Below are positions 13,298 to 34,811 of a DNA stretch of 58,219 bases, one piece after another. The stretch's first letter is position 1; every line of letters starts with the position of its first letter. The translations under genes were made by a program, and so were the position numbers. The stretch comes from an uncultured Bacteroidaceae bacterium (GTDB lineage: Bacteria; Bacteroidota; Bacteroidia; Bacteroidales; Bacteroidaceae). The notes beneath the pieces were generated by a model. It was given only the letters and a program-made list of their open reading frames with translations, did not search any database and was not told the DNA's origin. The stretch is taken from contig CAJOLR010000004.1 in assembly GCA_905235565.1 (NCBI GenBank), positions 1 through 58,219 of the forward strand, written 5' to 3'.

Positions 13298-13298
13298 G

Positions 13299-13371
<73 letters not shown>

Positions 13372-13401: not shown

Positions 13402-13433
13402 TTTGGCTGTGTCGGCATTTTTGAGTTAATTTG
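13402..13433 (+). promoter_or_regulatory. Promoter of the 24-gene polyene-type operon
   Basis: TTTG at 13402-13405 and TTAATTTG at 13426-13433 (one mismatch from TAnnTTTG) are 20 bases apart. It is the only promoter-like pair seen ahead of the operon and is divergent from tRNA-Thr. The leader to the first ATG is about 35 bases of A+T-rich sequence. Confidence 0.65.
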
Positions 13434-13473
13434 CAATTTAATATATCTATAATATATAATATCATATTGTAGT

Positions 13474-14202
13474 ATGAAATATGCACTGGTTACAGGTGGC
13501 TCAAGAGGGCTCGGAAGGGCTGTCTGCATAAAGCTTGCAGCTCAAGGCTACCCGGTTCTGATAAATTACAAATCTAACTCAGAGGCTGCTCTTGAGACCA
13601 AGCGTCTCATAGAGGAAAAGGGAGGTAATGCCGAACTTATGCCTTTTGATGTCTCTGTACAGGCTGATGTTGAGGCGGCAGTTGACAAATGGCAGGAGGC
13701 TCATAATGATGACTATATAGCAGTTCTGGTAAACAACGCCGGCATACGTCGGGACAATCTGATGGTCTTTATGCAGGATGATGACTGGAACAGCGTCCTT
13801 GGCACCAATCTCAACAGTTTCTTTTTCCTGACCCGTCGTCTGCTTAAGGATATGCTCTCCAAGCGCTGGGGCAGGATAGTAAATATGGCATCCCTGTCAG
13901 GCATCAAGGGATTGCCGGGTCAGACCAATTACTCTGCTGCTAAGGCTGCGCTGATAGGCGCAACAAAGGCTCTGGCGCAGGAGGTTGCCGCGCGCAAGGT
14001 TACGGTAAACGCCGTCGCTCCCGGTTTCATAGCTACGGATATGACCAGGGAACTGCCAGAAGATGAACTCAAGAAGATGATTCCGGTGGGCAGGTTCGGT
14101 CGTCCAGAGGAAGTGGCCGAAACAGTGGGTTTCCTGGTTTCGGAGGGAGCGTCGTACATAACCGGTGAAGTTATTTCAGTTAACGGAGGATTATATACCT
14201 GA
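13474..14202 (+). CDS. 3-oxoacyl-ACP reductase (FabG-like) of the polyene operon
   Basis: An SDR ketoreductase that would reduce the 3-oxo group after each condensation. The 242 residues have the NADP-binding TGGSRGLGR (7-15), NNAG at 87-90, and the catalytic Ser140/Ser142, Tyr153 and Lys157 (YSAAK). The end of the protein, ITGEVISVNGGLYT, is typical of FabG. It is the first gene of a 24-gene operon and is followed after 5 bases by a ketosynthase, so it is assigned to that pathway rather than to general fatty acid synthesis. Confidence 0.93.
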   Translation: MKYALVTGGSRGLGRAVCIKLAAQGYPVLINYKSNSEAALETKRLIEEKGGNAELMPFDVSVQADVEAAVDKWQEAHNDDYIAVLVNNAGIRRDNLMVFMQDDDWNSVLGTNLNSFFFLTRRLLKDMLSKRWGRIVNMASLSGIKGLPGQTNYSAAKAALIGATKALAQEVAARKVTVNAVAPGFIATDMTRELPEDELKKMIPVGRFGRPEEVAETVGFLVSEGASYITGEVISVNGGLYT

Positions 14203-14207
14203 TCGGA

Positions 14208-15428
14208 ATGGGAAGAGTAGTTATTACAGGAATGGGCATTTGGAGTTGTCTGGGTACAAACCTGGATCAGGTAAGGGACTCTCTGTTTGCCGGAAAGTCA
14301 GGAATTGGGATCGATCCCGCGCGTAAGGAATACGGATACAGGTCACTCCTGACCGGTATAGTGGAGCAACCTGTCCTGAAGGGCTTGCTTGACCGCCGCC
14401 TGCGTGCCGGAATGAGCGAGGAGGCTGAGTATGCTTTTATGGCCTCGCGTGAGGCATTTGCCAATGCGGGGGTGGACGATGATTATCTGCTGGCCAATGA
14501 GGTGGGCGTGATATTCGGTAACGATTCAAGTGCCAAGCCGGTCATCGAGACCAACCGGATAATGGAGGAGTATAAGGATAGCGCCATGTTGGGATCTGGC
14601 CTGATATTCCAGTCAATGAATTCAACAGTAAACATGAATATGAGTACCGTGTTCCATCTGCGTGGCGTGAACTTTACGCTGAGCGCCGCCTGCGCAAGCG
14701 GATCGCACGCCATAGGAATAGGGTACATGATGATACAGCAGGGATTGCAGGATATGGTTCTGTGCGGTGGCGCACAGGAGACAAACTACCTGTCAATGGC
14801 GTCGTTCGATGCCTTGTCAGCATTCTCGGTACGTATGGATGAGCCGCAGAAGGCATCACGTCCGTTTGACCGTGACCGTGACGGACTTGTTCCCAGCGGT
14901 GGCGCTGCGGCTCTGGTGCTTGAGGATTATGACCATGCCGTAAAGCGCGGTGCCAGAATACTGGCTGAGGTGGCAGGTTACGGGTTCTCATCAAACGGAA
15001 CCGGAGGTATATCACAACCCAATTCCGATGCATCGTTCCTGGCTATGAGCCGTGCCCTTAAGCAGGCCGGGGTGCTGCCTGATGATGTTGACTACATCAA
15101 TGCTCACGCCACATCCACACCGCAGGGCGATATGTTTGAGGCCGTGGCGCTGGCACGTCTCTTTGAGGGGCGAAAGGCATGGATAAGCTCCACCAAGTCA
15201 ATGACCGGACATGAATGCTGGATGGCAGGTGCCAGTGAAGCTGTCTACTGCACTCTGATGCTCAACAACGGTTTTGTGGCACCCAACATCAACTTTGAGA
15301 ACCCCGATGAGTATTCGGCCAGACTCAATATAGCAGCCGATACCAAACAGACTGAAATAAGGACTATACTGTCAAATTCCTTCGGTTTTGGAGGAACCAA
15401 CAGTGCACTCGTAATAAAGAAGATATGA
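14208..15428 (+). CDS. Beta-ketoacyl-ACP synthase (FabF-like), catalytic
   Basis: A 406-residue condensing enzyme. The full catalytic set is visible: Cys162 in SAACASGSH, His300 in NAHATSTPQGD and His335 in STKSMTGHE. The C-terminal SFGFGGTNSAL is also intact. It probably acts as one of the chain-initiating or elongating ketosynthases with the two ACPs of the operon. Start chosen 5 bases after the reductase stop; its end overlaps the methyltransferase start by 4 bases (ATGA). Confidence 0.93.
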   Translation: MGRVVITGMGIWSCLGTNLDQVRDSLFAGKSGIGIDPARKEYGYRSLLTGIVEQPVLKGLLDRRLRAGMSEEAEYAFMASREAFANAGVDDDYLLANEVGVIFGNDSSAKPVIETNRIMEEYKDSAMLGSGLIFQSMNSTVNMNMSTVFHLRGVNFTLSAACASGSHAIGIGYMMIQQGLQDMVLCGGAQETNYLSMASFDALSAFSVRMDEPQKASRPFDRDRDGLVPSGGAAALVLEDYDHAVKRGARILAEVAGYGFSSNGTGGISQPNSDASFLAMSRALKQAGVLPDDVDYINAHATSTPQGDMFEAVALARLFEGRKAWISSTKSMTGHECWMAGASEAVYCTLMLNNGFVAPNINFENPDEYSARLNIAADTKQTEIRTILSNSFGFGGTNSALVIKKI

Positions 15429-16528
15429 ATCTCTCACCGGCCTTGAAGGAGGCTTATACCAAGGAGCACCTGAGCGCACGTGACGCACAGCGTCTGGCTG
15501 AGTTCATCGCTTGGGGTCCGATAGTTTTCCAGGCATCACGCCTGATGATAAAGTTCGGAATTCTGGACCTTCTGCGCGATAATGTGGACGGTCTTACCCA
15601 GCAGGAGATTGCCGATAAGACCAGGTTGTCTCTCTACGCAGTTAAGGTGCTCACCGAGGCCTCTCTGTCTATAGGTTCAGTATTGCTGGACCCTGAGACT
15701 GACCGTTTCCGTCTGTCCAAGACAGGCTGGTTCCTGCTTACAAATCCCATCACCCGCGTTAACATCGACTTTAATCACGATGTCAATTATGAGGGCTGGT
15801 TCCGCCTTGAGGAATCTCTCAAGGAGGGGCGCCCCGCAGGTCTGGAGCATTTTGGAAAATGGCCTACGGTATATGAGGGCCTTTCACAGCTGCCTGAGCA
15901 GGTGCAGAAGAGTTGGTTCGGATTCGATCATTTCTACTCGGACCACTCGTTTGACGAGGCCCTTAAGATTGTGTTTGACGGAGGTCAGACTGAATCACTG
16001 GTTGATGTGGGCGGCAATACAGGCCGATGGGCCATGCGTTGCGTCGATTACAGCGACAAGGTGAAGGTTACCATAATGGACCTGCCGCAACAACTGGAGA
16101 TGATGCGTAGGCAGACTGCCGGGCAGAATGGCGCCGACCGCATTGATGGATTCGGCATAAACCTGCTGGACCGCAATCAGAAGTTCCCGCAGGGCCGTCA
16201 CTTTGACGCTATCTGGATGAGTCAGTTTCTGGATTGCTTCTCGGAGGATGAGATACTGAGCATACTTACACGTGCCACCGGTGCCATGGACAAGGATACC
16301 AGTCTTTACATAATGGAGACATTCTGGGACCGACAGAAGTATGAGCCGGGAGCATTGTGCCTGACCATGACAAGCCTCTATTTCACAGCCATTGCCAACG
16401 GTAACAGCAAGATGTACCATTCGGAGTGCATGGAGCGTCTGGTGGAAAAGGCAGGCATGAAGGTTGAGACAATACATGACAACCTGGGTCAGGGAGGTCA
16501 CAGTATCATGGTATGTAAACTGAAATAA
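15425..16528 (+). CDS. SAM-dependent methyltransferase with winged-helix dimerisation domain
   Basis: A 367-residue methyltransferase of the plant-COMT/hydroxyneurosporene type. Residues about 20-110 form a helical/winged dimerisation domain (MIKFGILDLLRDN, LTQQEIADKTRLS), and the SAM motif I is VDVGGNTGRW (193-202). WMSQFLDCFSEDE fits the downstream motif of the family. In aryl-polyene pathways a methyltransferase decorates the aromatic head; that is the likely role here but the substrate is inferred. Overlaps the ketosynthase upstream by 4 bases. Confidence 0.85.
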   Translation: MNLSPALKEAYTKEHLSARDAQRLAEFIAWGPIVFQASRLMIKFGILDLLRDNVDGLTQQEIADKTRLSLYAVKVLTEASLSIGSVLLDPETDRFRLSKTGWFLLTNPITRVNIDFNHDVNYEGWFRLEESLKEGRPAGLEHFGKWPTVYEGLSQLPEQVQKSWFGFDHFYSDHSFDEALKIVFDGGQTESLVDVGGNTGRWAMRCVDYSDKVKVTIMDLPQQLEMMRRQTAGQNGADRIDGFGINLLDRNQKFPQGRHFDAIWMSQFLDCFSEDEILSILTRATGAMDKDTSLYIMETFWDRQKYEPGALCLTMTSLYFTAIANGNSKMYHSECMERLVEKAGMKVETIHDNLGQGGHSIMVCKLK

Positions 16529-16546
16529 TCAAACAAGTAATAACAT

Positions 16547-16789
16547 ATGGACAGAAAAGAGATTGAAGCCAAAGTCAGGAATTTCATGATCGAGGATCTT
16601 GAGATTGATGAGGATAAGATCAGTCCCGATGCGCTGCTCAAGCAGGATCTGGGTATAGACAGCCTGGACTTTATTGACATTGTGGTCATTGTTGAGAAGA
16701 CATTCGGAGTCAAGATCAAGAGTGAGGAGATGGCTGGGGTAAAGACCTTCAGCGCGTTCTGTGACTATTTGGAGAGCAAGCTTGGCTAA
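16547..16789 (+). CDS. Acyl carrier protein 1
   Basis: An 80-residue acidic carrier protein. The phosphopantetheine site is Ser39 in DLGIDSLDFID. The usual four-helix ACP pattern and length are present. It carries the growing chain between the ketosynthases, reductase and dehydratases of the operon. The next gene begins inside its last codons. Confidence 0.95.
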   Translation: MDRKEIEAKVRNFMIEDLEIDEDKISPDALLKQDLGIDSLDFIDIVVIVEKTFGVKIKSEEMAGVKTFSAFCDYLESKLG

Positions 16790-17681
16790 GAGAGGGGGTA
16801 AACCCACTGATTGGAAGGGTAAGACCGACGGTCTGCCATGGATGATCCGTTCCCTGGTATTCCTTATGAAGGTCATAGACAGGCGCATCATCTATTGCTT
16901 TATGGCAGTTGTAGTCCCTTTCTATATGCTTTTCAATCACAAAGGCTATCTGGCCATCTACAGGTTTTTCAGAGAGCGTTTCGGTTACGGGCGGTTCAGG
17001 TCATTCCTGAAGGTTTACGCCAATCACTTCCGGTTCGGACAGGTCATAATTGACCGGTATGCGGCTTTCGCAGGCAAGAAGTTCCGGTTTGAACTGGACG
17101 GCAACGAGAGGTTCATGGAGCTGGTTAACGGTGAGACCGGTTTTGTTCAGCTAAGTTCACATGCAGGCAACTACGAGATGGTGGGATACGGTCTGACATC
17201 GGTCTCTAAGAAGATAAACGGTCTGTTCTACGGCGGTGAGACTCAGGTAATGATGGAATTCAGGCGTAAGATACTGTCTGTGCACAACGTGAACCTGATA
17301 GAGGTGAATGAGTCTATGTCGCACATATTCAATATGAATGCGGCTATAGACCGCGGTGAGATTGTTAGCATGACTGGTGACCGTATGTTCGGATCGGCCA
17401 AGTCTATCAGGTGCATGTTCCTGGGCAAGGAGGCACAGTTCCCCATGGGGCCGTTTGCCTTGGCTGTGCAGAAGGAGGTTCCCATGCTGGCGGTGTTCTC
17501 AATGCGTAGTCACGGAGTGTACAAGGTCTATGTGAGGGATATAAGACAGGATGAATCGCTCCCGCTCAGGGCACGTATGGCCGATATGGCCGCAAAATTT
17601 GCCTCCGAGCTGGAGAGAGTGGTCAGAATGTATCCCACACAGTGGTTCAACTACTACGATTTCTGGAAGACCGATGAATGA
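16782..17681 (+). CDS. LpxL/HtrB-like acyltransferase
   Basis: A 299-residue membrane-associated acyltransferase of the lipid A lauroyltransferase type, which moves an acyl chain from ACP to a lipid acceptor. The probable catalytic motif is HX4E in SSHAGNYEM. A hydrophobic N-terminal helix (IIYCFMAVVVPFYMLF) would anchor it. Start chosen at TTG 16782, overlapping the ACP stop by 8 bases, with GGAGA 6-10 bases upstream; an in-frame GTG at 16761 lies inside the ACP and is less likely. In the operon it could attach the finished polyene to a membrane lipid. Confidence 0.85.
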   Translation: MAKRGGKPTDWKGKTDGLPWMIRSLVFLMKVIDRRIIYCFMAVVVPFYMLFNHKGYLAIYRFFRERFGYGRFRSFLKVYANHFRFGQVIIDRYAAFAGKKFRFELDGNERFMELVNGETGFVQLSSHAGNYEMVGYGLTSVSKKINGLFYGGETQVMMEFRRKILSVHNVNLIEVNESMSHIFNMNAAIDRGEIVSMTGDRMFGSAKSIRCMFLGKEAQFPMGPFALAVQKEVPMLAVFSMRSHGVYKVYVRDIRQDESLPLRARMADMAAKFASELERVVRMYPTQWFNYYDFWKTDE

Positions 17682-18096
17682 GTTTGAAAAGGTAGATATT
17701 CACACATTGCTGCCGCAGCAGGAGCCGTTCGTGATGATTGACCGTCTGCTCCATTATGACCCGGTCCGGACAGTCACGAGTCTTGAGGTCAGGGCAGACA
17801 ATATCTTTGTTGACAATGGTCATCTGTCAGTGGCCGGAATCAACGAGAACATAGCCCAGACCTGCGCAGCCAGGATGGGATACATCAGCCGCTTATCGGG
17901 CGAGAGGGTAAAGATTGGTGTGATAGGTGCCATAACCGGATTCAGCGTGAACCGTACTCCGCTGACAGGTGAGGTACTGACAACTGCAATAGATGTAGTG
18001 CAGGAGGTTTACCAGGTGACGCTGGTACATGCCACCGTTATGGTCGGGACAGAGATTATCGCTGAGACTGACCTTAAGATTGCGCTACAGGATTGA
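17674..18096 (+). CDS. Hotdog-fold 3-hydroxyacyl-ACP dehydratase-like protein 1
   Basis: A 140-residue hotdog-fold protein of the FabZ/FabA-like group found in aryl-polyene loci. It begins with the LLPQQEPFVMIDRL strand typical of FabZ-type enzymes, and the central helix NGHLSVAGINENIAQT carries a histidine and a glutamate in the positions used for dehydration. It would remove water from 3-hydroxyacyl-ACP to make each double bond. The ATG at 17674 overlaps the acyltransferase stop by 8 bases; the frame is open further upstream but only inside that gene. Confidence 0.85.
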   Translation: MNEFEKVDIHTLLPQQEPFVMIDRLLHYDPVRTVTSLEVRADNIFVDNGHLSVAGINENIAQTCAARMGYISRLSGERVKIGVIGAITGFSVNRTPLTGEVLTTAIDVVQEVYQVTLVHATVMVGTEIIAETDLKIALQD

Positions 18097-18530
18097 TGCT
18101 TAAATATATTGACATGAAAGAACTTAAGGCTACCATACCACTGCGGGTCCGCTTCAGCGAGGTGGACTCCATGAACATAGTATGGCACGGATCATACGTG
18201 ATGTATTTTGAGGATGCCCGCGAGGCGTTCGGTCAGAAGTATGGAATAGCCTATCTTGATATATTCGGTCAAGGTTATTATGCTCCGCTGGTGGACCTGT
18301 CATTCAAGTACAAGAGTCCTATTACATATGGGATGAAGCCGGAGATAACCATAACCTTCAGGCCGGTGGATGCCGCCAAGATTGTGTTCGATTATGAGAT
18401 AACCAATCCGGACAACGGTGAGGTGCTGGCCACAGGCCATTCCGTGCAGGTTTTCATGGACCTGAACTATCAGTTGGTATGGGGCAATCCCGATTTCTAT
18501 GAGGAGTGGAAAAGAAAATGGCTCGATTGA
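18096..18530 (+). CDS. Hotdog acyl thioesterase (4-hydroxybenzoyl-CoA thioesterase type)
   Basis: A 144-residue thioesterase of the 4HBT/YbgC family. The segment RFSEVDSMNIVWHGSYVMYFEDARE holds the family Asp and His and the start of the central helix; it is the best recognised part. It may edit or release ACP-bound intermediates. The ATG at 18096 overlaps the preceding TGA by one base; a second in-frame ATG at 18114 is possible. It overlaps the next gene by 13 bases. Confidence 0.85.
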   Translation: MLKYIDMKELKATIPLRVRFSEVDSMNIVWHGSYVMYFEDAREAFGQKYGIAYLDIFGQGYYAPLVDLSFKYKSPITYGMKPEITITFRPVDAAKIVFDYEITNPDNGEVLATGHSVQVFMDLNYQLVWGNPDFYEEWKRKWLD

Positions 18531-19660: not shown

Positions 19661-19662
19661 TT

Positions 19663-20253
19663 ATGGAGAGGAGAGGACTTGACTTTGTGGTGCTTAACCA
19701 GGGTAATGCCCAGCTTACGGAGCTGTATCGCACTCATATAGGTGATTGGCCAAAATTCTACAAGATGGATACCCTTAGCAAGGCGGGATTTGTGGCTACT
19801 GAACTGTTGCTCAAAAAGATAGGCGAATGCAGGTGTGGCGGCGAAGAGTTTGTCCGGAGCCGAGCCATAGTGCTGTTCGGCTCAACGGCATCGCTTTGCG
19901 CCGACAGGAATTATCAGGAAACGATACAGGACAAGGATAACTATTATCCAAGTCCGGCACTGTTTGTATATACACTGCCAAACATCGTGACGGGCGAGAT
20001 TGCCATCCGCAACCATTGGCGTGGCGAGACATCATTCTACGTACTGGAGGAGCCCGATGCATCACAGATGGCGTTTCATCTGGCATGCGCATTCCAGGAC
20101 GGCGATACGGAGAGCATACTTGCCGGATGGGTGGACAGCCGTATGAATGATGACTATCAGGTATTCGTGACTCTCATTAACCGTGAAGATGCGACTGACA
20201 CCGAATGGTTGACCGGACAATTGGATTTGATTATTAACAAATTAAACAAATAA
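19663..20253 (+). CDS. Half-size ketosynthase-like protein without catalytic cysteine
   Basis: A 196-residue protein that matches only the N-terminal half of a ketosynthase. MDTLSKAGFVATELLL, AIVLFGSTASLC and SPALFVYTLPNIVTGEIAIRN follow the order of the first thiolase-like subdomain. Where the nucleophile cysteine should be, the sequence reads RGETSFYVLEE, so it cannot condense. It starts 2 bases after the divergent ketosynthase and ends 10 bases before the second ACP, so a structural or chain-length role with a neighbouring enzyme is inferred. No frameshift is seen at its end. Confidence 0.7.
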   Translation: MERRGLDFVVLNQGNAQLTELYRTHIGDWPKFYKMDTLSKAGFVATELLLKKIGECRCGGEEFVRSRAIVLFGSTASLCADRNYQETIQDKDNYYPSPALFVYTLPNIVTGEIAIRNHWRGETSFYVLEEPDASQMAFHLACAFQDGDTESILAGWVDSRMNDDYQVFVTLINREDATDTEWLTGQLDLIINKLNK

Positions 20254-20263
20254 AGATATTATT

Positions 20264-20521
20264 ATGGAAGAGATGATTCTTAAACTGAAGCAGGAGATTA
20301 TCGAGGTTCTGAATCTTGAGGACATCAAACCCGAGGAGATTGACAATGACGCTCCTCTGTTTGGTGAAGGTCTTGGCCTTGATTCAATTGATGCACTGGA
20401 ACTTATCGTGCTCATGGAGAAGAACTACGGCATCAAGCTGCAGGATCCTGCCAAGGGTAAGGAGATATTCAGGTCCATCAATGTGATGGCTGACTATATT
20501 CAGAAAAACCGCACCAGATAA
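20264..20521 (+). CDS. Acyl carrier protein 2
   Basis: An 85-residue carrier protein with phosphopantetheine Ser41 in GLGLDSIDALEL. It is clearly different from the first ACP (DSI instead of DSL and a different helix I), which fits the two-ACP arrangement of aryl-polyene systems, where one ACP loads the starter and the other carries the chain. Its TAA overlaps the ATG of the next ketosynthase by one base. Confidence 0.95.
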   Translation: MEEMILKLKQEIIEVLNLEDIKPEEIDNDAPLFGEGLGLDSIDALELIVLMEKNYGIKLQDPAKGKEIFRSINVMADYIQKNRTR

Positions 20522-21720
20522 TGCAGGAAAAATCAGTGCTGATAACAGGCTGCGGCATAGTGAGTGCCATAGGCCTGGATTGCGGACAGGTATTGGATTC
20601 GCTCCTTAAGGTACGTACCGGAGTGGGGACGCTCAGATACCTCAAGACCGGACATACGGAGTTTCCCGTAGGTGAGGTCAAACTGTCCGATGAGGAGATG
20701 CAGCGTATGATGGGCATTGCTTCCGATACGCCCTCAACCCGTACGGCACTGATGGGGATGATTGCCCTGCATGAGGCTTTGGGGCAGGCCGGACTGAACC
20801 GTGATGACCTCAAGGAGTGCGGTTTTGTGAACGGCACCACAGTGGGTGGTATGGACAAGAGTGAGCAGTATTACCTGGATTTCATTGAGAATGACAGCCG
20901 TAACGCTTACATCAGCACTCATGACTGCGGTTCTTGCTCCGAGATGATAGCCGACCGTTTTGGCCGTTTCAAGATGATTACCACCATATCCACGGCGTGT
21001 TCATCGGCCGCAAACGCAATTGAGATGGCCGCCGATATGATACGACTGGGTGAGGCCGATATAGTTGTGGCAGGAGGATCGGAGTGCATAACCAAGTTCC
21101 ATCTGAACGGTTTCAACTCACTTATGATACTGGACCATAACCAGTGCCGTCCGTTTGATGCCGGCAGGGCCGGACTGAATCTGGGCGAGGGTGCCGCTTT
21201 CGTGGTGCTTGAGGAGGCCGGTCATGCGGCTGCACGCGGTGCCAAGGCTTTGGCGCGTCTCTCTGGTTACGGAAATGCCTGCGACGCCTTCCACCAGACT
21301 GCTTCATCACCTGATGGTGAGGGTGCATATATTGCTATGAGCAAGGCACTTAAAGAGGCTGGGTTAAAGCCATCGGACATTGATTACGTGAATGCTCACG
21401 GTACCGGAACTCCCAATAACGATGAGAGTGAGAGCCAGGCCATGAAACGGCTTTTTGGCCAGTATATGCCGCCGGTGTCATCGACCAAGTCCATGACCGG
21501 ACATACCACCAGCGCATCGGGAGCAATCGAGACGGTTATCTGTATTCTGGCCATAAGGAACGGTTTCATTCCTGTAAACTATGCGTTTGAGCATCCTATG
21601 GAGAACGGAATCGTGCCCAATATGGATCTGAACCGTGGCTGTAAGTTGCGTCACGTGCTCTGCAACTCGTTCGGATTCGGCGGAAACGACTCATCATTGG
21701 TATTGTCAGCAGTGGAATGA
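20521..21720 (+). CDS. Beta-ketoacyl-ACP synthase (FabF-like), catalytic partner of a CLF-like protein
   Basis: A 399-residue condensing enzyme with Cys160 (TISTACSSAAN), His293 (NAHGTGTPNND) and His328 (STKSMTGHT), plus the C-terminal SFGFGGNDSSL. It is followed with a 4-base overlap by a ketosynthase-like protein without catalytic residues, so the two probably form a KS/chain-length-factor heterodimer like the elongating pair described for Xenorhabdus aryl polyenes. That pairing is inference from order and sequence. Confidence 0.93.
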   Translation: MQEKSVLITGCGIVSAIGLDCGQVLDSLLKVRTGVGTLRYLKTGHTEFPVGEVKLSDEEMQRMMGIASDTPSTRTALMGMIALHEALGQAGLNRDDLKECGFVNGTTVGGMDKSEQYYLDFIENDSRNAYISTHDCGSCSEMIADRFGRFKMITTISTACSSAANAIEMAADMIRLGEADIVVAGGSECITKFHLNGFNSLMILDHNQCRPFDAGRAGLNLGEGAAFVVLEEAGHAAARGAKALARLSGYGNACDAFHQTASSPDGEGAYIAMSKALKEAGLKPSDIDYVNAHGTGTPNNDESESQAMKRLFGQYMPPVSSTKSMTGHTTSASGAIETVICILAIRNGFIPVNYAFEHPMENGIVPNMDLNRGCKLRHVLCNSFGFGGNDSSLVLSAVE

Positions 21721-23077: not shown

Positions 23078-23078
23078 T

Positions 23079-23696
23079 ATGAGAAAGATATACCTGATAG
23101 TCACTTGTCTGGTCCTGCTGCTTGCAGTGGGAGTGTGGGCTGTACCGTTCAGCGGACAGCAGACTGAGGATGAGATGATTGAGAGTATCGTAAAGGCGTG
23201 CTCCGATATGCGATCAATGAAGTGTGACATAAGCCAGACCAGACGTATTCCGCTAATGGATGAGCCTCAGCAATCTGCAGGGACTATGATATATATCACT
23301 CCTTCCAGGTTTTGTCTGAACTATACCGATCCTTTTGAGTGGAAACTCAAGGTTGACGGAGATATTGTAACGGTAGACTCAGGACAGGAGGCATCGGGCG
23401 ATGCAGGACGTCTGTACAAGGGTATGTCGGGTATGATACTGGGCTGTATGTCGGGTGAAATGCTCAAGGACAAACGCACTTTCAGCGTATCTGTGGCCGA
23501 TGCCGGCACGGAGTGGAAGGCGGTGATGATTCCGCAGCGCCGTGACATGAAGAAGATGTTCAGCCGTATTGAACTGGGATTCGATCCAGATACACGTCTG
23601 CTTAAACGCCTCCTTATGGAGGAGGCCGGAGGAGGCAGCACGGAGATACTTATCAGCAATGTGAATCTGAACGGGGACTATGAGGCTGAATGGTGA
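23079..23696 (+). CDS. LolA-like periplasmic carrier
   Basis: A 205-residue protein with an N-terminal signal peptide or anchor (MRKIYLIVTCLVLLLAVGVWA) followed by a LolA/LolB-type half-barrel. The middle holds the usual SAGTMIYITPSRFCLNYTDP pattern with alternating strands, like the LolA-like proteins encoded in aryl-polyene loci. It should shuttle a hydrophobic molecule, presumably the polyene lipid, from the inner to the outer membrane. Gap of one base from the preceding gene and 17-base overlap with the next. Confidence 0.82.
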   Translation: MRKIYLIVTCLVLLLAVGVWAVPFSGQQTEDEMIESIVKACSDMRSMKCDISQTRRIPLMDEPQQSAGTMIYITPSRFCLNYTDPFEWKLKVDGDIVTVDSGQEASGDAGRLYKGMSGMILGCMSGEMLKDKRTFSVSVADAGTEWKAVMIPQRRDMKKMFSRIELGFDPDTRLLKRLLMEEAGGGSTEILISNVNLNGDYEAEW

Positions 23697-24072: not shown

Positions 24073-24073
24073 C

Positions 24074-27738: not shown

Positions 27739-27740
27739 GT

Positions 27741-29231
27741 ATGGAGGTGGTGATTATAGGTTCAGGAATGGGCGGATTGTTCTGCGGGGCGCTTTTGGCC
27801 AGGCGCGGTGTAAGGGCTACCGTACTTGAGAAGAATGGTGTTATAGGCGGCGGAATGCAGATGTTCGTACGCAACGGTGAGTCATACGAGACCGGAATGC
27901 ATGTGGCTGGAGGTTTCAACCAAGGCGGTGTCCTGAACAGTATATGCCGTTATCTGGGCATTATGGACAGACTGCGTATCAGTCCGTCGGACATGATGCT
28001 GAGCGTAACATACGCCGACAGCGGACGCACCTATGACCTGCCAGCCGGCAGAGATGCATTCATTTATTATCTGTCAGGCAAGTTCCCGCATGAGAAAGAT
28101 AACATACGGCGTTATGTGGATGCCGTATTCCGTGTATCACATGAGGAGAAACTTTTCTATCTGGAGAGCATGAGGGGTGTCAGTGACCACTCCGACGAGT
28201 TCTTTATGCCTGCCGATGCATTCATTGCAAAGTATATCGGTGATCCGGAACTGCGTGCCGTGCTGGCATCGGTCAACCCGCTTTATTCGGGTATTCCCGG
28301 ACACTCGCCGGCTTACATACACATAATGATTTCGGCACTCTTTATGGAGAATCCCTGCCGTTTTGAGGGAGGTTCCGGACAGTTGGCCGATGCCCTGAAG
28401 AGTGTGATTGAAGATGCCGGAGGCAGGGTGCAGACGCATTCTGAGGTGGTATCGGTACGGGTAAGTGACATGTATGTGGAGTGTGTGACAGACCGGTCCG
28501 GAAAAGAGTACCGGGCAGACTGGTACATATCGGATATCCATCCTGTGTCATTGTTCGGTCTGATAGACGGTAAGGCTTTCACAACCGGATACCGCAGCCG
28601 TATTGAGAGCATTCAGGAGACAGCATCGGCATTCAAGGTCTATGTAAGGCTCACGCCCGGAACGGTACCGTTCCCGTCACATCCGATATCGGTGGTGGAC
28701 AGCATGGAGAATGCATGGAAGATGGCAGAGTATGAGCCGGACAACTGGCCGCATGGAGTAAACTGTTTCTTCGGACAGGGCATGGACGGCTACGCATCAC
28801 ATCTGACGGCATACTGCCTGATGACCTTTGATGAGGTCCGGGAGTGGGAGAACACCCGCTCAGGACACAGGGGAGAGGCTTATGAGGCTTGGAAACGGGA
28901 GCGGACAGAGAGGGTACTGGACCTGGTGGAGAAACGTTTTCCACACATAAGGGAGTGTGCCGATGATATCTTTGCCTCATCACCGCTTACGTTCCGCGAC
29001 TGGATGGGAACCGTGAGGGCAGGCGCATACGGTCTGTTTAAGGACAGTAAAGACATAGCATCATCGCTTATTCCCATACGCACCAAGGTGAAAAACCTGC
29101 TCCTTACCGGACAAAATGTAAATATGCACGGAATTGGTGGGGTTCCGATGACGGCAATTGAAACCATTCAGACTATATTTGCAGACGATTCCGTATTGAA
29201 GGGGATCAGGGATGCTGTATCAAACAAGTAA
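27741..29231 (+). CDS. FAD-dependent oxidoreductase, phytoene-desaturase/CrtI-like
   Basis: A 496-residue flavoprotein. The N-terminal dinucleotide site is VVIIGSGMGGLFCGALLARRG with an acidic end (LEKNG), and the C-terminal GQNVNMHGIGGVPMTAIET matches the flavin-contacting end of CrtI-like desaturases and retinol saturases. It might adjust saturation of the polyene chain or oxidise a precursor; there is no crtB or other carotenoid gene nearby, so carotenoid synthesis is not supported. ATG 27741 chosen, 2 bases after the exporter stop. Confidence 0.85.
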   Translation: MEVVIIGSGMGGLFCGALLARRGVRATVLEKNGVIGGGMQMFVRNGESYETGMHVAGGFNQGGVLNSICRYLGIMDRLRISPSDMMLSVTYADSGRTYDLPAGRDAFIYYLSGKFPHEKDNIRRYVDAVFRVSHEEKLFYLESMRGVSDHSDEFFMPADAFIAKYIGDPELRAVLASVNPLYSGIPGHSPAYIHIMISALFMENPCRFEGGSGQLADALKSVIEDAGGRVQTHSEVVSVRVSDMYVECVTDRSGKEYRADWYISDIHPVSLFGLIDGKAFTTGYRSRIESIQETASAFKVYVRLTPGTVPFPSHPISVVDSMENAWKMAEYEPDNWPHGVNCFFGQGMDGYASHLTAYCLMTFDEVREWENTRSGHRGEAYEAWKRERTERVLDLVEKRFPHIRECADDIFASSPLTFRDWMGTVRAGAYGLFKDSKDIASSLIPIRTKVKNLLLTGQNVNMHGIGGVPMTAIETIQTIFADDSVLKGIRDAVSNK

Positions 29232-29249
29232 CAGACAAAAGGACAACAT

Positions 29250-30545
29250 ATGAAACCGTTCAAACTGAAGCTAATCTATCCCAAGTGGCAGAAACTGAAA
29301 GGTCAGACCACTTTCAACCTACCGCCTCACGGACCGGTTGCCTTTGCGGCCACGCTCCCCGAGTGGGTTGAGGTGACATTCACCGATGAAAATGTGGAGG
29401 CCATCAACTTTGACGAGGAGTGCGATGGTGTGGCATTGTCAATGATGCTCAGCACCCAGGTCAAACGCGGATGGGAGATAGCCGATGAGTATCACAAACG
29501 CGGCAAACTGGTCATGGCCGGAGGTATATCCACCATGCTCCATGCCGAGGATATGGTAAAGCATGTGGACTGCGTGTTCCTGGGCGAGTCTGAGGGCCGC
29601 ATGGAGGAGGTGATGCAGGACTGGGTGAACGGCAAGCTGCGCAAGTTCTACAACTATATGGGCAACATGCCGCCTATTGAGTCTGTAGGTCCCTGCCGCC
29701 GTGACCTGTACAAGCGTGAACTCTACAACCATAAGGGCGTGCAGATGGTGGACCTGTTCCATGCCAGCCGCGGATGCAGGTTCAGCTGCTATCCCTGCGC
29801 CGTTTCATATCTGGGCGGCCGCAAGTTCCGTCCGCGTCCAATTGACAAGGTGGTAGAGGATATGGCTGCCATAGACAACAACCGCCTGTTCATAGTAGAT
29901 AACTCACTGGCCCAGAACAAGGAGTGGGAGAAAGAGCTCTTCACCGCAATTGCCCCGCTCAAGAAGAAATGGATAAGCCATACCATCGAAGATGACCCCG
30001 AGGTACTGGATCTGGCAGCCAAGGCAGGCGCATGGTACGTATATCAGGCCGTTTATGATACATCGGACTACATCAAGGAGCGCGTAAAACGCTATCACGA
30101 TTATGGTATTGGCGTGGAGGGTACCATCCTGCTGGGACTGGACAACCAGACCGAGGATGACATAAAGCGTCTGATTGATTTCCTGGGAGAGATAGACCTG
30201 GACCTGGCCGAATTTACAGTGATGACCCCGTTCCCGCACACTAAGGGATATGATGACCTGCTGCGTCAGGGCCGCATATTTGACTTTGACTGGAACCATT
30301 ACAACGCCGGTCAGGTGGTGTTCCAGCCCAAGCACATGAGCCCGGAGCGCCTGCAGGAACTCTATGATTACGCATGGAAGAGTTTCTATGCCGATGAGAG
30401 CCAGGAGCAGAAGATGTTCCGTCTGTTCTGCAACGTTGCCCTGCGTGAGATGGAGGAGGGTACTTACCGCCCGCGTGACCGCCGTCTTGCCAACAAGTCA
30501 TTCGGCAAGGATGTAGTCAGAAACATAAAGACTGTAAACGTATGA
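29250..30545 (+). CDS. Radical SAM protein with B12-binding-type N-terminal domain
   Basis: A 431-residue radical SAM enzyme. The iron-sulfur motif is C176xxxC180xxC183 (RGCRFSCYPCA). The preceding 150 residues have the Rossmann-like build of cobalamin-binding domains (VEAINFDEECDGVALSMM, LVMAGGISTMLH, VFLGESEG). A TIM-barrel-like core follows, with LLGLDNQTEDDIKRLIDFL. Such enzymes methylate or rearrange unreactive carbons; the substrate is unknown. Only 18 bases follow the FAD gene, without a terminator, and it overlaps the next gene by 4 bases, so it seems to belong to the operon. Confidence 0.88.
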   Translation: MKPFKLKLIYPKWQKLKGQTTFNLPPHGPVAFAATLPEWVEVTFTDENVEAINFDEECDGVALSMMLSTQVKRGWEIADEYHKRGKLVMAGGISTMLHAEDMVKHVDCVFLGESEGRMEEVMQDWVNGKLRKFYNYMGNMPPIESVGPCRRDLYKRELYNHKGVQMVDLFHASRGCRFSCYPCAVSYLGGRKFRPRPIDKVVEDMAAIDNNRLFIVDNSLAQNKEWEKELFTAIAPLKKKWISHTIEDDPEVLDLAAKAGAWYVYQAVYDTSDYIKERVKRYHDYGIGVEGTILLGLDNQTEDDIKRLIDFLGEIDLDLAEFTVMTPFPHTKGYDDLLRQGRIFDFDWNHYNAGQVVFQPKHMSPERLQELYDYAWKSFYADESQEQKMFRLFCNVALREMEEGTYRPRDRRLANKSFGKDVVRNIKTVNV

Positions 30546-30904
30546 AAGTATCACCCGATTATTACGACGAGATATTCAACTACCAGGGCGAATGGGATAT
30601 GCCATCGGCATGCGGCCTCAAGATACGCCGCAGTGAAGGTAAGACCTATGTCATAGTAACAGAACTGTATCAGGACAATCCGGGCACATCGGTCACCTAT
30701 GCCGGACATAAACTGGCCGGCCAGATATGCCAGGCTAAGGGCCTTGACCTGAAAGACATTGTCTATGTGGAGTGCAATCCCAACACCAACTCCAAACTCT
30801 CGTTCTACGATGAGGAGTATTTTGAGGTGGACTTTGATGCCGACCCTCAGCACAAATACCGTCAGTTGACAAGGGAAGAGATGCTCAAACTGCTGGGTAA
30901 GTGA
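30542..30904 (+). CDS. Unrecognised 120-residue protein coupled to the radical SAM gene
   Basis: No family recognised. It is a soluble acidic protein without signal peptide or membrane helix. YVIVTELYQDNPGTSVTY and DIVYVECNPNTNSKLSFYDEEYFEV suggest a small alpha/beta fold. Its ATG overlaps the radical SAM stop and its TGA overlaps the next ATG, so the three are translated together. It could be a partner, a peptide-free chaperone or a regulator of the radical SAM enzyme, but nothing in the sequence decides this. Confidence 0.75.
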   Translation: MKVSPDYYDEIFNYQGEWDMPSACGLKIRRSEGKTYVIVTELYQDNPGTSVTYAGHKLAGQICQAKGLDLKDIVYVECNPNTNSKLSFYDEEYFEVDFDADPQHKYRQLTREEMLKLLGK

Positions 30905-31785
30905 TGTTTGCAAGCCTGCTGTTCAGTTTCCTGGCCGTCATTATCCCGAGCAGCAAGACCATTGCTCCCTGGGCTGATCTGGAAAGGCATGCCGATGAGG
31001 TTAAGGTTACGCCTTATCTGGCAGAAGATAGCCGTAACGCACCTACGGTGATTGTCTGTCCTGGAGGCAGCTACCACTGGCTGGATGTCAAGGGCGAGGG
31101 TATTGAGGTGGCCGAATGGCTGCAGGACAACGGAATCAATGCGATACTTCTACAGTACCGCACAGCAGGATTGGGTTCTTTCATCTGGCATTACCGGTTC
31201 CTGTTCCGTGGCCGCAAGCATCCCGATATGATATGTGATGTCCAGCGTACAATCCGTTACGTGCGAGAGAATGCCGACAGTCTGGGTATTGATCCGCATC
31301 GTGTAGGAGTGATGGGCTTTTCGGCCGGAGGACATCTTGCCATGTCATCGGCCTGTTTCAGTGACAGGGACTATACAAACCTTCCTGACGGTCCTTCGGA
31401 AGTTTCGTTAAGACCCGATTTTGTGGGCGCCATATATCCTGTAGTCACAATGAAAGGTGAGTATGTCCACAAACGCTCACGCCGCGGACTGCTGGGAGAG
31501 TGGGGTGTATACAGCGCCAGGAAAAGGGACTTGATGTCCATCGAGGAGAACATTCCTGAAGACTGTCCTCCGGTATTTCTTATAAATTGCAAGGACGATC
31601 CTGTTGTAGATTGGCATAATTCAGTAATTTTGGACAAAGCTCTTACCGATGCCGGTGTCAGACACAAGTATATCCTGTATGAGACGGGTAAGCACGGGTT
31701 TGGGGTAAGCAATATTTACGGCTCTCCGGAGTGCCGCAAATGGAAAGATGATTTTTTGGTCTGGCTAAGTAAGTTGTATGAATGA
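30904..31785 (+). CDS. Alpha/beta-hydrolase esterase/lipase
   Basis: A 293-residue esterase of the BD-FAE/acetyl-xylan-esterase-like type. The oxyanion segment is VIVCPGGSYHWLDV, the nucleophile is in GVMGFSAGGHLAMS, and the Asp and His are in CKDDPVVDWHN and ETGKHGFGVS. A hydrophobic N-terminus (MFASLLFSFLAVIIPSS) may be a signal peptide, so it could act in the periplasm. ATG 30904 overlaps the previous TGA by one base. Its place in the operon suggests it cleaves an ester in the pathway product, but a carbohydrate ester is equally possible by family. Confidence 0.85.
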   Translation: MFASLLFSFLAVIIPSSKTIAPWADLERHADEVKVTPYLAEDSRNAPTVIVCPGGSYHWLDVKGEGIEVAEWLQDNGINAILLQYRTAGLGSFIWHYRFLFRGRKHPDMICDVQRTIRYVRENADSLGIDPHRVGVMGFSAGGHLAMSSACFSDRDYTNLPDGPSEVSLRPDFVGAIYPVVTMKGEYVHKRSRRGLLGEWGVYSARKRDLMSIEENIPEDCPPVFLINCKDDPVVDWHNSVILDKALTDAGVRHKYILYETGKHGFGVSNIYGSPECRKWKDDFLVWLSKLYE

Positions 31786-33070
31786 CATAGAGTTTTCATC
31801 GCCTGCGGAGATAAAGGCTTTTCAGGAGGATCTGCTGCATAAGCACCTTGTTTATCTCAAGAAGTATTCGCCCTATTACAGGCGCGTATTTGACAGCTAT
31901 GGGATAAACATCAGTAAGATTGTGCACCTGGAGGACCTGACGCGCATTCCTTTCACCGAAAAGAAAGATCTTCAGCTCTACAACGATGATTTCTGCTGTG
32001 TTGCCAAGAACAGGATCATAGACTATATAACTACATCTGGCACTCTTGGTGATCCAGTACTTTTTGGCTGTACCGAGAAGGACCTGCAGCGCCTGGCATA
32101 CAATGAGAAGAAATCATTCATGTGTGCCGGCCTGACCAGTGACAGCGTTGTCCAGCTGATGACCACTCTCGACAAGCGCTTCATGGCCGGTATGGCATAT
32201 TTCCTGGGCCTCCGTGAGATGGGTGCGGGCGTGATCCGCGTAGGTAACGGAATCCCCGAACTCCAGTGGGACACCATCCGCCGTTTCCATCCCGATGCCA
32301 TAATGTGCGTACCGTCTTTCATTCTCAAACTGATAGAGTATGCCGATGCGCATGATATCGATTACCGTTCCAGCAGTATACGCCGCATAATAGGTATCGG
32401 TGAGGGACTGCGGGGACAGGATTTTGAACTAAACCTGCTGGGGCGCCAGATTCATGATAAATGGCCCGAGGTCCAGCTGTTTGCAACCTATTCATCGACC
32501 GAGATGGGGGCTACCTTCAGTGAGTGCGAGTACGGTATGGGCGGTCACGTGCATCCGGAGCTGATTATTGTGGAGATTATCGGTGATGACGGCATGCCTG
32601 TGGCCGACGGACAGCCGGGCGAGGTGGTCGTGACCACACTTGGGGTTGAGGGAATGCCTCTGCTCAGATTCCGTACCGGAGATATAGCATGCAAGCATGT
32701 GGAGCAGTGCCGCTGTGGCCGATGGTCATACAGGCTCTCACCGCTGCTGGGACGCAAGAACAATATGATCAAGCTGAAGGGTACCACTCTCTATCCGCCG
32801 GCTATCAACGATGTGCTTGATAATACCGATTATATAGAGAACTATGTGGTGACAGTACGTAACAGCAAGGCCGGAACTGATGATGTGATTGTAAAGATAG
32901 GGCTCAAGAATGATCCTGGCTTTGATGTCATCAAGGAACTTAAGGACAGTTTCCGCTCACGCATCCGAGTGGCACCGGAAATTGAGATATGTCCCGTTGA
33001 GGAGATTCAGAAGATCAATTATCCTCCAACCGGCCGCAAACCGGTCAAATTCATAGATGAAAGGAAATGA
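31778..33070 (+). CDS. PaaK-like adenylate-forming ligase
   Basis: A 430-residue member of the phenylacetate-CoA ligase family. The ATP loop reads TTSGTLGDPVLFG, the second core motif YSSTEMG, and LRFRTGDI and LLGRKNNMIKLKG mark the hinge to the C-terminal domain. It activates a carboxylic acid, often aromatic, to an acyl adenylate and then a thioester. In this operon it is the only candidate for activating an aromatic starter. Overlaps the esterase by 8 bases and the next gene by 4. Confidence 0.9.
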   Translation: MNDIEFSSPAEIKAFQEDLLHKHLVYLKKYSPYYRRVFDSYGINISKIVHLEDLTRIPFTEKKDLQLYNDDFCCVAKNRIIDYITTSGTLGDPVLFGCTEKDLQRLAYNEKKSFMCAGLTSDSVVQLMTTLDKRFMAGMAYFLGLREMGAGVIRVGNGIPELQWDTIRRFHPDAIMCVPSFILKLIEYADAHDIDYRSSSIRRIIGIGEGLRGQDFELNLLGRQIHDKWPEVQLFATYSSTEMGATFSECEYGMGGHVHPELIIVEIIGDDGMPVADGQPGEVVVTTLGVEGMPLLRFRTGDIACKHVEQCRCGRWSYRLSPLLGRKNNMIKLKGTTLYPPAINDVLDNTDYIENYVVTVRNSKAGTDDVIVKIGLKNDPGFDVIKELKDSFRSRIRVAPEIEICPVEEIQKINYPPTGRKPVKFIDERK

Positions 33071-34191
33071 CAGACTATCACAAGTTCGATGATATACGTC
33101 CCTATCGGGATGAGGAGATACCGGCAGCAATGCAGCGCATTGCATCCAACCACTTATTCCCGCTGGTAGCCAAGTTTGTCTTTCCGGAACTGACAGTTGA
33201 ACAGGCTGCCGATAAGATACGCAGTTTCAAGACCATATATGATTTCCAGCATGACGCAATGGTGCCTATGAACCAGCAGGTTCTTGAAGGCACAATAACA
33301 GAATTCACAATTGGAGGAATAGAAAAACTTGATACATCCAAACGTTACCTCTATGTCAGTAACCATAGGGATATAGTATTGGATTCCTGTATCCTCATGT
33401 ATGCCCTGTTCAGGGATGGAGGTCACAATACAGGTGAGATTACTTTCGGATCAAACCTGATGCGCGGCGAACTGGTTATAGATATAGGCAAAAGCAACAA
33501 GATGTTCCGTGTGGACCGCGCACGTAATCCGCGTGAACTGTACAGCACATCGGTACATCTGTCGGAATACATCCGATACGCCATAACTGAGAAAAAGCAG
33601 TCTGTCTGGATAGCCCAGCGCAACGGACGCACCAAGGACGGCATTGACCGCACTGACCAGGGGGTAATCAAGATGTTCGGCATGAGCGGTCCCAAGGACA
33701 GGGTGGATGCTCTTGATGAACTTAATATCGTACCGGTATCGGTCTCATACGAGTGGGAGTCTTGCGATATACTCAAGGCTCTTGAATTGTACGAGACCCG
33801 TAACGGCGAGCCTTACATCAAGAAGCCGGGCGAGGACCTGAACAGCATCCTGACCGGCATCTTGCAGGATAAAGGCCGTGTACATTTCCAGATATGCGAT
33901 CCCATAAGGCGCGATGAACTGGAGGCTCTGAAAGATGTACCCAATGTACAGTTCCATCGTGAAGTGGCTCAGATAATTGACAAACGCATCTGTGGCGATT
34001 ACCGCCTGTTCCCAAATGCATATATAGCTCATGACCTTCGTTACGGCACCACCCGTTATTCAGACCGTTACACAAAAGAGCAGTATGATGCTTTTGTGGC
34101 CCGTATGGCCGAGCTTGACAAATACAGCACGGATCCTGTCCTGACGGACATATTCCTGGGTATTTACTCCAACCCGATAATGCAACCTTAA
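33067..34191 (+). CDS. Glycerolipid-type acyltransferase (PlsC/PlsB superfamily)
   Basis: A 374-residue acyltransferase. The acceptor motif appears as SNHRDIVLDSCIL, where the His-to-Asp spacing is one longer than the usual HX4D, and WIAQRNGRTKDGIDRTDQGV matches the second motif (EGRTKDG type). The N-terminal part (VAKFVFPELTVEQAADKIRS) is helical without obvious membrane spans. It probably transfers an acyl group to a lipid-like acceptor. Overlap of 4 bases with the ligase gene ties it to the operon. Confidence 0.8.
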   Translation: MTDYHKFDDIRPYRDEEIPAAMQRIASNHLFPLVAKFVFPELTVEQAADKIRSFKTIYDFQHDAMVPMNQQVLEGTITEFTIGGIEKLDTSKRYLYVSNHRDIVLDSCILMYALFRDGGHNTGEITFGSNLMRGELVIDIGKSNKMFRVDRARNPRELYSTSVHLSEYIRYAITEKKQSVWIAQRNGRTKDGIDRTDQGVIKMFGMSGPKDRVDALDELNIVPVSVSYEWESCDILKALELYETRNGEPYIKKPGEDLNSILTGILQDKGRVHFQICDPIRRDELEALKDVPNVQFHREVAQIIDKRICGDYRLFPNAYIAHDLRYGTTRYSDRYTKEQYDAFVARMAELDKYSTDPVLTDIFLGIYSNPIMQP

Positions 34192-34202
34192 CTGTTAATC
34201 AT

Positions 34203-34811
34203 ATGGAAAAGACAAGCACTGTAATCAAGTCTTCGATACTGGCAGGCATCTGCATCGGAATAGCCGGATTCGGTTTCCTGGCTCTGGGCGGGATTGCCGG
34301 GGCCGTACTCTTTGCCTTCGGGCTTATAACCGTGGTGTGCTATAAGCTCAAACTATACACTGGAACCGCCGGCTTTATTGTAAAAGGAGAGGTAGGCAAG
34401 CTGCTGATAATCCTTTTGGGCAATATTGCAGGATGCCTTTTGGTGGCTTTGCTGGCCAGAGTCTCGCCGATGGACCTTCAGGGCGCGGCGCAAAAGATAC
34501 TGGCAGGCCGTTTGGCCATCGGTCCGGTGCGTGCCGGCCTGCTGGCTATAGGGTGCGGATTCCTGATGACAACCGCCGTTACATTTGCCCGTCGAGGTCA
34601 GTGGCTTCCTCTGCTTTTTGCGGTGCCTATGTTCATACTGTGCGGATTCCCGCACTGCATAGCCGATGCGTTCTACTATCTTACAGTACCGTTCTCATTC
34701 ATCAGGGATAATTTCTGGAGCGTTCTGCTGCTCTATGTCTGTCTGGTTATAGGCAACTTTATCGGCTGCAACCTGTATAGGCTTATCATGTCCGGTGAGG
34801 AGAAAGTGTAA
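34203..34811 (+). CDS. Formate/nitrite transporter (FNT) family channel
   Basis: A 202-residue inner-membrane protein with six hydrophobic segments. Its pattern (SSILAGICIGIAGFGFLALGG, YTGTAGFIVKGE, CGFPHCIADAFYYL) corresponds to FNT channels, which pass formate, nitrite or hydrosulfide; the GFPHC segment aligns with the GFEHCVAN loop carrying the central histidine. It is shorter than most members (about 250-280). It is the last gene of the long operon, 11 bases behind the acyltransferase; no terminator follows before the GH43 gene. Confidence 0.75.
   Translation: MEKTSTVIKSSILAGICIGIAGFGFLALGGIAGAVLFAFGLITVVCYKLKLYTGTAGFIVKGEVGKLLIILLGNIAGCLLVALLARVSPMDLQGAAQKILAGRLAIGPVRAGLLAIGCGFLMTTAVTFARRGQWLPLLFAVPMFILCGFPHCIADAFYYLTVPFSFIRDNFWSVLLLYVCLVIGNFIGCNLYRLIMSGEEKV

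Follow-up and report, generated by a model that had tools for sequence, protein, structure and literature searches.

A flexirubin-type aryl-polyene operon without flxA and with flxY retained in a Bacteroidaceae bacterium, possibly supplied with its starter acid from outside

The flexirubin cluster of Chitinophaga pinensis opens with flxA (Cpin_1853) and closes with flxY (Cpin_1877); the lyase FlxA deaminates tyrosine to 4-coumarate, from which the ligase FlxY then makes 4-coumaroyl-CoA (PMC3992019). Here, we describe a related operon in a stretch of 58,219 nucleotides from an uncultured Bacteroidaceae bacterium (contig CAJOLR010000004.1, assembly GCA_905235565.1). This stretch, called the window below, is an entire contig of a draft genome of 2.2 Mb in 91 contigs, 91% complete. 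Judged by its genes, the operon is a FlxA-less, FlxY-retaining variant of the known aryl-polyene (APE)/flexirubin-type cluster with a conserved radical SAM accessory pair. The explanation that we favour, with about even confidence, is that a rumen/gut Bacteroidales lineage has lost flxA from a flexirubin-type APE lipid operon while keeping flxY, and that a hydroxycinnamate-type starter comes from outside.

Cinnamate, indoleacrylate, indolepropionate, 3-chlorocinnamate, and phenylpropionate are also taken by C. pinensis FlxY, and no other carboxylic acid tested was accepted (PMC3992019). In the presence of dialkylresorcinol (DAR) proteins, APEs become flexirubin-type pigments (PMC5932025), and the predicted starter of the E. 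coli APE is 4-hydroxybenzoate (PMC8253772). Among the classes of gene cluster that one survey recorded in the rumen, aryl polyenes ranked second in number (2,800 of 14,814 clusters; PMC8241843).

Gene content and class of the operon

The operon occupies positions 13474-34811 of the window as 24 co-directional open reading frames on the forward strand, overlapping or spaced by no more than 18 bp. These genes, and the one that follows them, are:

13474..14202, +, FlxB, ketoreductase (KR), operon gene 1; NF053542, 405.8 bits (cut-off 340)
14208..15428, +, KS_a, FabB-like ketosynthase (KS); Cys/His/His present
15425..16528, +, FlxJ-family methyltransferase, probable ring methylation; NF053543, 595.8 bits (cut-off 560)
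16547..16789, +, acyl carrier protein 1 (ACP1); DSL motif, kept in relatives
16761..17681, +, LpxL/HtrB-like acyltransferase; PF03279
17674..18096, +, DH_a, FabZ-like dehydratase (DH); weak FabZ matches, below cut-off
18096..18530, +, 4HBT thioesterase; PF13279
18518..19660, +, KS_b, ketosynthase; Cys/His/His present
19663..20253, +, 196-aa conserved protein, no family assigned; found in most related clusters
20264..20521, +, ACP2; DSI motif, PF00550, NF006617
20521..21720, +, KS_c, ketosynthase adjoining KS_d; Cys/His/His, presumably ApeO-like from its position
21717..22733, +, KS_d, chain-length-factor-like ketosynthase without the active-site Cys and both His; PF13723
22721..23077, +, EamA/ArnE-like small membrane protein
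23079..23696, +, LolA2, flexirubin-cluster type; NF053544, 126.8 bits (cut-off 125), a narrow pass
23680..24072, +, DH_b, FabA/FabZ-like dehydratase; PF07977
24074..24805, +, GT2 glycosyltransferase; PF00535
24802..27738, +, MMPL-like exporter fused to a PlsC-type acyltransferase; PF01553 over cut-off
27741..29231, +, FAD oxidoreductase, carotenoid desaturase/isomerase superfamily; PF01593, TIGR02733 below cut-off
29250..30545, +, B12-type radical SAM enzyme, CxxxCxxC at 176-183; PF04055 over cut-off
30542..30904, +, 120-aa partner of the radical SAM enzyme, no known family
30904..31785, +, probable secreted esterase, BD-FAE/xylan-esterase-like, GFSAG; PF20434, signal peptide judged by eye
31778..33070, +, FlxY, aryl-acid CoA ligase, PaaK superfamily; NF053551, 683.7 bits (cut-off 520)
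33067..34191, +, acyltransferase, 374 aa, last conserved gene; PF01553
34203..34811, +, FNT-family channel, outside the conserved cluster; PF01226
34840..36258, +, GH43, xylosidase/arabinofuranosidase type; PF04616, 28 bp downstream of FNT

Pfam and NCBIfam scans took in 23 of the 24 operon genes; ACP1, left out of them, was assigned from its motif and its matching place in relatives. These assignments agree with an earlier reading made from the sequence alone (the sequence-only reading), which had proposed a 24-gene polyene-type operon. All four flexirubin equivalogs, FlxB, FlxJ, LolA2, and FlxY, score above their NCBIfam cut-offs, and the APE gene set is present: a ketosynthase with a Cys-less chain-length factor (CLF), a FabB-like ketosynthase, KR, DH, and two ACPs. 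The active-site Cys and both His are kept in KS_a, KS_b, and KS_c and are absent from KS_d, which fits a chain-length factor. The set for export and attachment comprises an MMPL-type exporter, LolA, acyltransferases, and GT2; the exporter's MMPL match is marginally under the cut-off (20.4 against 20.5 bits), but is backed by HAE3/HpnN-like matches, which are below their cut-offs too. The aryl starter-acid ligase expected of an APE cluster is present as FlxY, its substrate being predicted.

Neither DarA nor DarB was named among the 23 scanned genes. For DarB, moreover, nothing in the genome passed the cut-off of 550 bits (KS_a scored highest, at 18.6), and none of 35 related genomes had a match above it; no genome search with a DarA profile was made. 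The absence of DarA/DarB to which the sequence-only reading had pointed thus extends, for DarB, to the whole genome, but it does not distinguish this operon from its relatives. Without DAR proteins, an APE is expected instead of a flexirubin, and by its gene content the cluster is of the APE type, not a true flexirubin cluster.

Two further assignments were tried and rejected. The 196-aa protein was considered as half a ketosynthase, and a profile comparison with ketosynthases gave no match. The FNT channel, which the sequence-only reading had placed at the end of the operon, is co-directional with it but occurs in 0/10 cluster tails from the genus, so that the conserved operon has 23 genes.

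The flxA gene and its partner flxY

The sequence-only reading had seen no ammonia lyase in the operon or window and had called for a genome search. That search found no PF00221 (aromatic ammonia lyase) match in the operon or anywhere else in the draft genome; as a control, the same search gave matches in 5/14 named genomes. Of 101 genomes, 34 carry FlxY over cut-off; 24 of them belong to the 37 genus members (the window's included) and 10 to the 64 others. PF00221 was searched for in these 34 and in G010, whose FlxY is in pieces. None of the 25 genus genomes (the 24 with FlxY over cut-off and G010) has a match. Outside the genus, PF00221 is found in eight of the ten FlxY-bearing genomes and is absent from G041, a single-contig genome from the same family, and from G078. 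The FlxY match of G010 (locus L202, contig C34) lies in three pieces, either a disrupted gene or the result of assembly errors.

The gene next upstream of flxB is flxA in G061, G080, G081, G099, and many named loci. Genus members have other genes in front of flxB: GH67 in many of them, and an outer-membrane protein gene and tRNA-Thr in the window. The tRNA-Thr(CGT) gene (13298-13371, minus strand) stands directly upstream of the operon, at the expected place of flxA. With flxA absent and the rest of the operon intact, a single gene appears to have been lost from the operon head. Immediately before flxB in G041, and on the same strand, a stretch (L043:8956-9084, minus strand) matches ~40 N-terminal FlxA residues. 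All five lyase queries matched it; the best E was 0.001, within 2.2 kb of sequence, and five neighbouring control stretches gave 0.031 at best. A wider scan had given the match at this flxA position only E 0.12. The stretch is apparently the stump of a deleted flxA.

The gene that the sequence-only reading called a PaaK-like ligase is indeed a starter-acid ligase of the PaaK superfamily, but its NF053551 score identifies it as FlxY, an already known gene with a characterised orthologue (PMC3992019). FlxY is under strong purifying selection and is not decaying: comparison with five relatives from the genus gives a dN/dS of 0.025-0.051, which puts it with the most constrained of the 17 genes examined (0.011-0.051 for the radical SAM enzyme, 0.028-0.052 for FlxB), values that are rough given FlxY synonymous distances of 0.74-1.83. 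Since FlxY normally accompanies FlxA, its being kept alone suggests that a substrate remains. On a tree of 52 FlxY proteins (28 FlxA-absent, 24 FlxA-present), there are eight changes of state, at least five of them forced by well-supported branches; these are losses only if flxA was never regained, and incomplete drafts and a fragment in G114 could inflate the count.

A FlxJ-anchored scan of named genomes placed the window in a wider setting, the best 80 of 572 relatives being analysed. The titles of these 80 mostly name ruminant, deer, or horse samples or carry RUG-type names, which we take to denote rumen genomes. A lyase is present in 19 of the 80 loci, and 61 have none within the available sequence, 9 of these with <3 kb upstream; among the loci of this set with same-strand flxB and at least 3 kb upstream, 17 have a lyase and 27 do not. 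Genome-wide searches for PF00221 covered 50 genomes of this set, of which 44 have lyase-less loci and 6 have a lyase. No PF00221 at all was found in 37 of the 44, five have one full-length match of a high-scoring HutH-like tier, and G114 has a fragment of undecided type. G138 was counted as FlxA-bearing: in addition to a HutH-like match it has a FlxA-like one, which adjoins FlxY on the cluster contig and lies outside the locus flank. Both tiers are present in all six lyase-bearing controls; FlxA was told from HutH presumptively, by score tier, with the position of the lower tier in clusters as backing.

All seven FlxA-bearing named genomes carry FlxY over cut-off, against 11 of the 43 FlxA-less ones. 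The chance of finding it in all seven is ~0.0003 (hand-computed hypergeometric, 18/50 with FlxY, draft gaps ignored), and 6 of the 11 are genus members already in the 25-genome count. The other 32 FlxA-less relatives have no FlxY over cut-off and retain polyene polyketide synthase (PKS) genes. On these sequences, lyase loss is common among rumen/gut Bacteroidales, mostly without FlxY, and the window is one of the fewer cases in which it is kept. The 32 relatives without either gene (among loci L077-L156, genomes G101-G144) suggest that there is a third class of cluster, using another starter. As the flexirubin genes are known, all four equivalogs being over cut-off, and lyase-less clusters are common, the operon is not as such the undescribed system for which the sequence-only reading took it. 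A search of the open-licence literature, by titles and abstract beginnings, found no description of lyase-less, FlxY-retaining flexirubin clusters.

Other cluster forms were also seen. The clusters of L102, L103, L110, and L113 are rearranged: upstream of flxJ, the opposite strand carries flxB, the FAD oxidoreductase, and KS_a. The genus members G001 and G028 (L065-L068) have another version of the cluster, in which FlxY shows 57% identity, the radical SAM pair was not seen, and the KS_a gene is on a separate stretch.

Possible sources of the starter acid

Gene content and order from flxB to flxY, the absence of PF00221, and the constraint on FlxY can be read directly from the DNA; for the remainder of the pathway we infer the following course. 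FlxY would activate an imported acid of the hydroxycinnamate type, 4-coumarate or one close to it, whose most likely origin is grass arabinoxylan. The KS/CLF, KR, and DH enzymes would extend this starter by malonyl units to a polyene acid on the two ACPs, FlxJ would methylate the ring, and changes to the head group or the chain would be the work of the FAD enzyme and the radical SAM/120-aa pair. GT2 and the acyltransferases would then attach the polyene acid to a lipid or glycolipid, in the place of dialkylresorcinol, and the MMPL and LolA proteins would carry the product to the outer membrane. An Acyl_transf_1 gene (FabD-like, 155.9 bits) lies near the operon at 44676-45539 (minus strand), overlapping an alpha-amylase gene at 42997-44727; its product could supply malonyl-ACP.

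A more specific form of this proposal, put forward tentatively, is that the whole genus and other Bacteroidales lineages make a diet-dependent pigment. Its head would be an arabinoxylan hydroxycinnamate freed by the secreted esterase encoded beside the ligase, with GH43 sharing that transcription unit or adjoining it, and the radical SAM pair would tailor this head anaerobically. The idea of the sequence-only reading that an aromatic acid is scavenged from diet or host is thus still live, favoured as a plant hydroxycinnamate, though not proven.

Plant cell walls fed to cattle contain p-coumarate and ferulate in ester or ether linkage to arabinoxylan and lignin (PMC9695934). The esterase of the operon has PaeX- and AxeA1-type matches below cut-off, and its PDB matches include xylanase and acetyl xylan esterase. 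Among the genes detected, it immediately precedes FlxY in 16/19 lyase-bearing, 7/9 FlxA-less non-genus, and 9/12 genus tails (L072 in this comparison starts inside FlxY); five further lyase-bearing tails lie outside this count, three with the esterase and two in which none is shown. In ten genus tails, GH43 starts 4-24 bp after the acyltransferase in five, 88 bp after it in one, and >2 kb after it in two, and was not found in the other two; five lyase-bearing sister tails (L169-L173) have no GH43 match. GH43 is possibly co-transcribed with the operon. A xylan-esterase-like gene beside FlxY and a nearby GH43 fit scavenging from plant cell walls, a fit rather than proof, and the GH67 upstream in many genus members belongs to the same xylan context. 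The esterase was also considered as a substitute for the lyase, and this was rejected because it adjoins FlxY in lyase-bearing clusters too. A PF00756 esterase is encoded on the same contig (239-1405, plus strand), and that family also includes feruloyl esterases.

The radical SAM enzyme (431 aa, motif CRFSCYPC) matches PF04055 with 33.9 bits (cut-off 29.5). Its B12-binding-like N-terminus reaches 26.0 bits for PF02310, below the cut-off of 32.1, making cobalamin use putative, and its best profiles, of MJ_1487-, HpnJ-, BchE-, and HpnR-type families, are all under cut-off. The family is tight: 37 of 393 genomes of the order, the window's included, score >600 bits and the next match is at 235, and in a phylum sample of 395 genomes only the window's own has a match at E 1e-100. 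Among 20 neighbourhoods fetched, flx genes lie within ~10 kb in 17, and the 120-aa gene is present in 17. The pair may precede the esterase and FlxY, run divergently from flxA, adjoin the lyase, or follow the exporter and FAD genes; in L124 it lies between DH_b and KS_b. PF00221 is present in 34 of the 36 other genomes with this family (31/33 plus G087, G094, and G099); in G257, one of the genomes with the family, the sole PF00221 match is HutH-like. Because the family mostly occurs together with PF00221, it points to an accessory tailoring module and not to a lyase substitute. The two genes apparently form an undescribed accessory pair of Bacteroidales polyene clusters, and the families that the enzyme resembles suggest anaerobic C-methylation or hydroxylation of ring or chain. 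No paper on radical SAM in connection with flexirubin was found in the open-licence literature. Structure models have a mean pLDDT of 52.4 for the enzyme and 64.6 for the 120-aa protein, the latter with no structure match at E ≤ 0.001; a likeness of the 120-aa protein to TAL-effector repeats (PDB sequence, best E 1.4e-4) was judged to be chance, no single stretch passing.

Several observations weigh against an imported hydroxycinnamate. The esterase is not specific to lyase loss, since lyase-bearing clusters have it beside FlxY as well, and no hydroxycinnamate uptake system was identified, no profile search for one having been made. No flxA remnant was found at E ≤ 0.1 in ten genus heads (best 0.16, within another gene), the window's genome is 91% complete and most compared genomes are drafts, and the product of the cluster is a predicted one. 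Relative to the lyase-bearing sister clade, the genus branch of FlxY is the longest among 23 genes (ratio 1.74; the next, of the 120-aa protein, is 1.63 with a single outgroup). Counted by hand, it carries ~55 against 32 changes, p ~0.014 uncorrected and not significant when corrected for 23 genes. Twelve FlxY changes are fixed in the genus, N316W being common to the FlxA-less lineage G109/G110/G114, and the faster branch may reflect an altered substrate preference. This acceleration and the N316W common to a second FlxA-less lineage would suit the main rival, in which FlxY activates an endogenous aromatic acid such as 4-hydroxybenzoate, or 4-coumarate made by a non-homologous enzyme. APE/xanthomonadin-type pathways do begin with 3- or 4-hydroxybenzoate (PMC8253772, PMC3949708). 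We nevertheless consider an endogenous acid rather unlikely: the chorismate lyase UbiC (PF04345) was not found in the genome, in a search whose control matched in E. coli, and among the acids tested C. pinensis FlxY took only cinnamates, indoleacrylate, and two arylpropionates (PMC3992019). The chorismatase N-domain PF21168 had no match in the genome either, a result made uninformative by a silent control, and no Fld-type phenyllactate dehydratase (HGD-D, PF06050) was found there.

The FlxA-less relatives without FlxY over cut-off (32/43), with their PKS genes, raise the possibility of a non-hydroxycinnamate starter in this cluster type, a further point against the favoured explanation. They would also accord with there being no aryl head at all, an acyl group from fatty acid synthesis serving as starter and FlxY having another role; the strong purifying selection on both FlxY and the FlxJ methyltransferase in the genus argues against this, and we think it improbable. 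Replacement of the lyase by the radical SAM enzyme and its partner, through radical cleavage of tyrosine to an aromatic acid, draws on the proximity of both genes to FlxY in the genus, but it is very improbable in view of the common co-occurrence of the family with PF00221. Moreover, the tail stretches examined for the FlxA-less, FlxY-bearing G041, G103, and G105 show no radical SAM gene, and G041 lacks the family genome-wide. The families that the enzyme weakly matches are also B12-type methylases/cyclases and not tyrosine lyases. A draft in 91 contigs, 91% complete, could in principle hide a lyase gene in an assembly gap. This is the least probable of the explanations considered, as the lyase is absent from 25/25 genus genomes searched, the usual flxA position is assembled and occupied by other genes, and the single-contig G041 has no lyase save the apparent stump.

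Comparison with known clusters

If the favoured explanation, an imported hydroxycinnamate-type starter, is true of some FlxY-bearing clusters that have lost starter synthesis of their own, pigment production would depend on forage phenolics, and fibre digestion would be tied to the bacterial outer membrane. The radical SAM/120-aa pair is probably a conserved tailoring step. The nearest named genomes (L107-L109, L119, L120, and L122) are Bacteroidaceae/Bacteroidales from horse faeces, water buffalo, and RUG/UBA sets. Further along the window, 45730-58219 holds capsule/exopolysaccharide-type genes (Bac_transf, Poly_export/SLBB, Wzz, UDP-GlcNAc 2-epimerase, and WbsX).

The APE clusters of E. coli CFT073, Xenorhabdus, and Acinetobacter (ape genes) resemble the window operon, in the available descriptions, in their ketosynthase with a reduced CLF, second FabB-like ketosynthase, two ACPs, KR, DHs, and Lol-like proteins, and in an aromatic starter that does not come from an ammonia lyase. 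Like the window operon, ape clusters also hold exporter, acyltransferase, and glycosyltransferase genes. They differ in their starter ligase, which is ApeH where the window has one of FlxY/PaaK type; no ubiC was found in the window's genome, and the window operon has a B12-type radical SAM pair. The xanthomonadin and arcuflavin clusters share type II FAS-like aryl-polyene assembly and an AMP ligase, and their starter is hydroxybenzoate, not a lyase product (PMC3949708). There, a XanB2-type chorismatase makes the hydroxybenzoate; none was found in the window's genome, in the search with the silent, uninformative control.

The C. pinensis flxA-flxY cluster and the 37 kbp cluster of Flavobacterium johnsoniae resemble the window operon in FlxB, FlxJ, LolA2, and FlxY and in a set of genes for KS, reductase, dehydratase, thioesterase, acyltransferase, LolA, glycosyltransferase, and exporter (PMC3992019). 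Compared with C. pinensis, the window operon is without flxA and DarB and has a GH43 gene downstream and an esterase beside flxY; its radical SAM/120-aa pair is not named for C. pinensis in the available text of PMC3992019. Lyase-bearing Bacteroidales clusters such as those of G394/RUG11952 and G145/UBA1184, which have no GH43 match in the stretches fetched, show the same tail order of radical SAM enzyme, 120-aa protein, esterase, FlxY, and acyltransferase. Their FlxY proteins are 78-81% identical to that of the window, and they differ from its operon in carrying flxA upstream of flxB and two FAD oxidoreductases.

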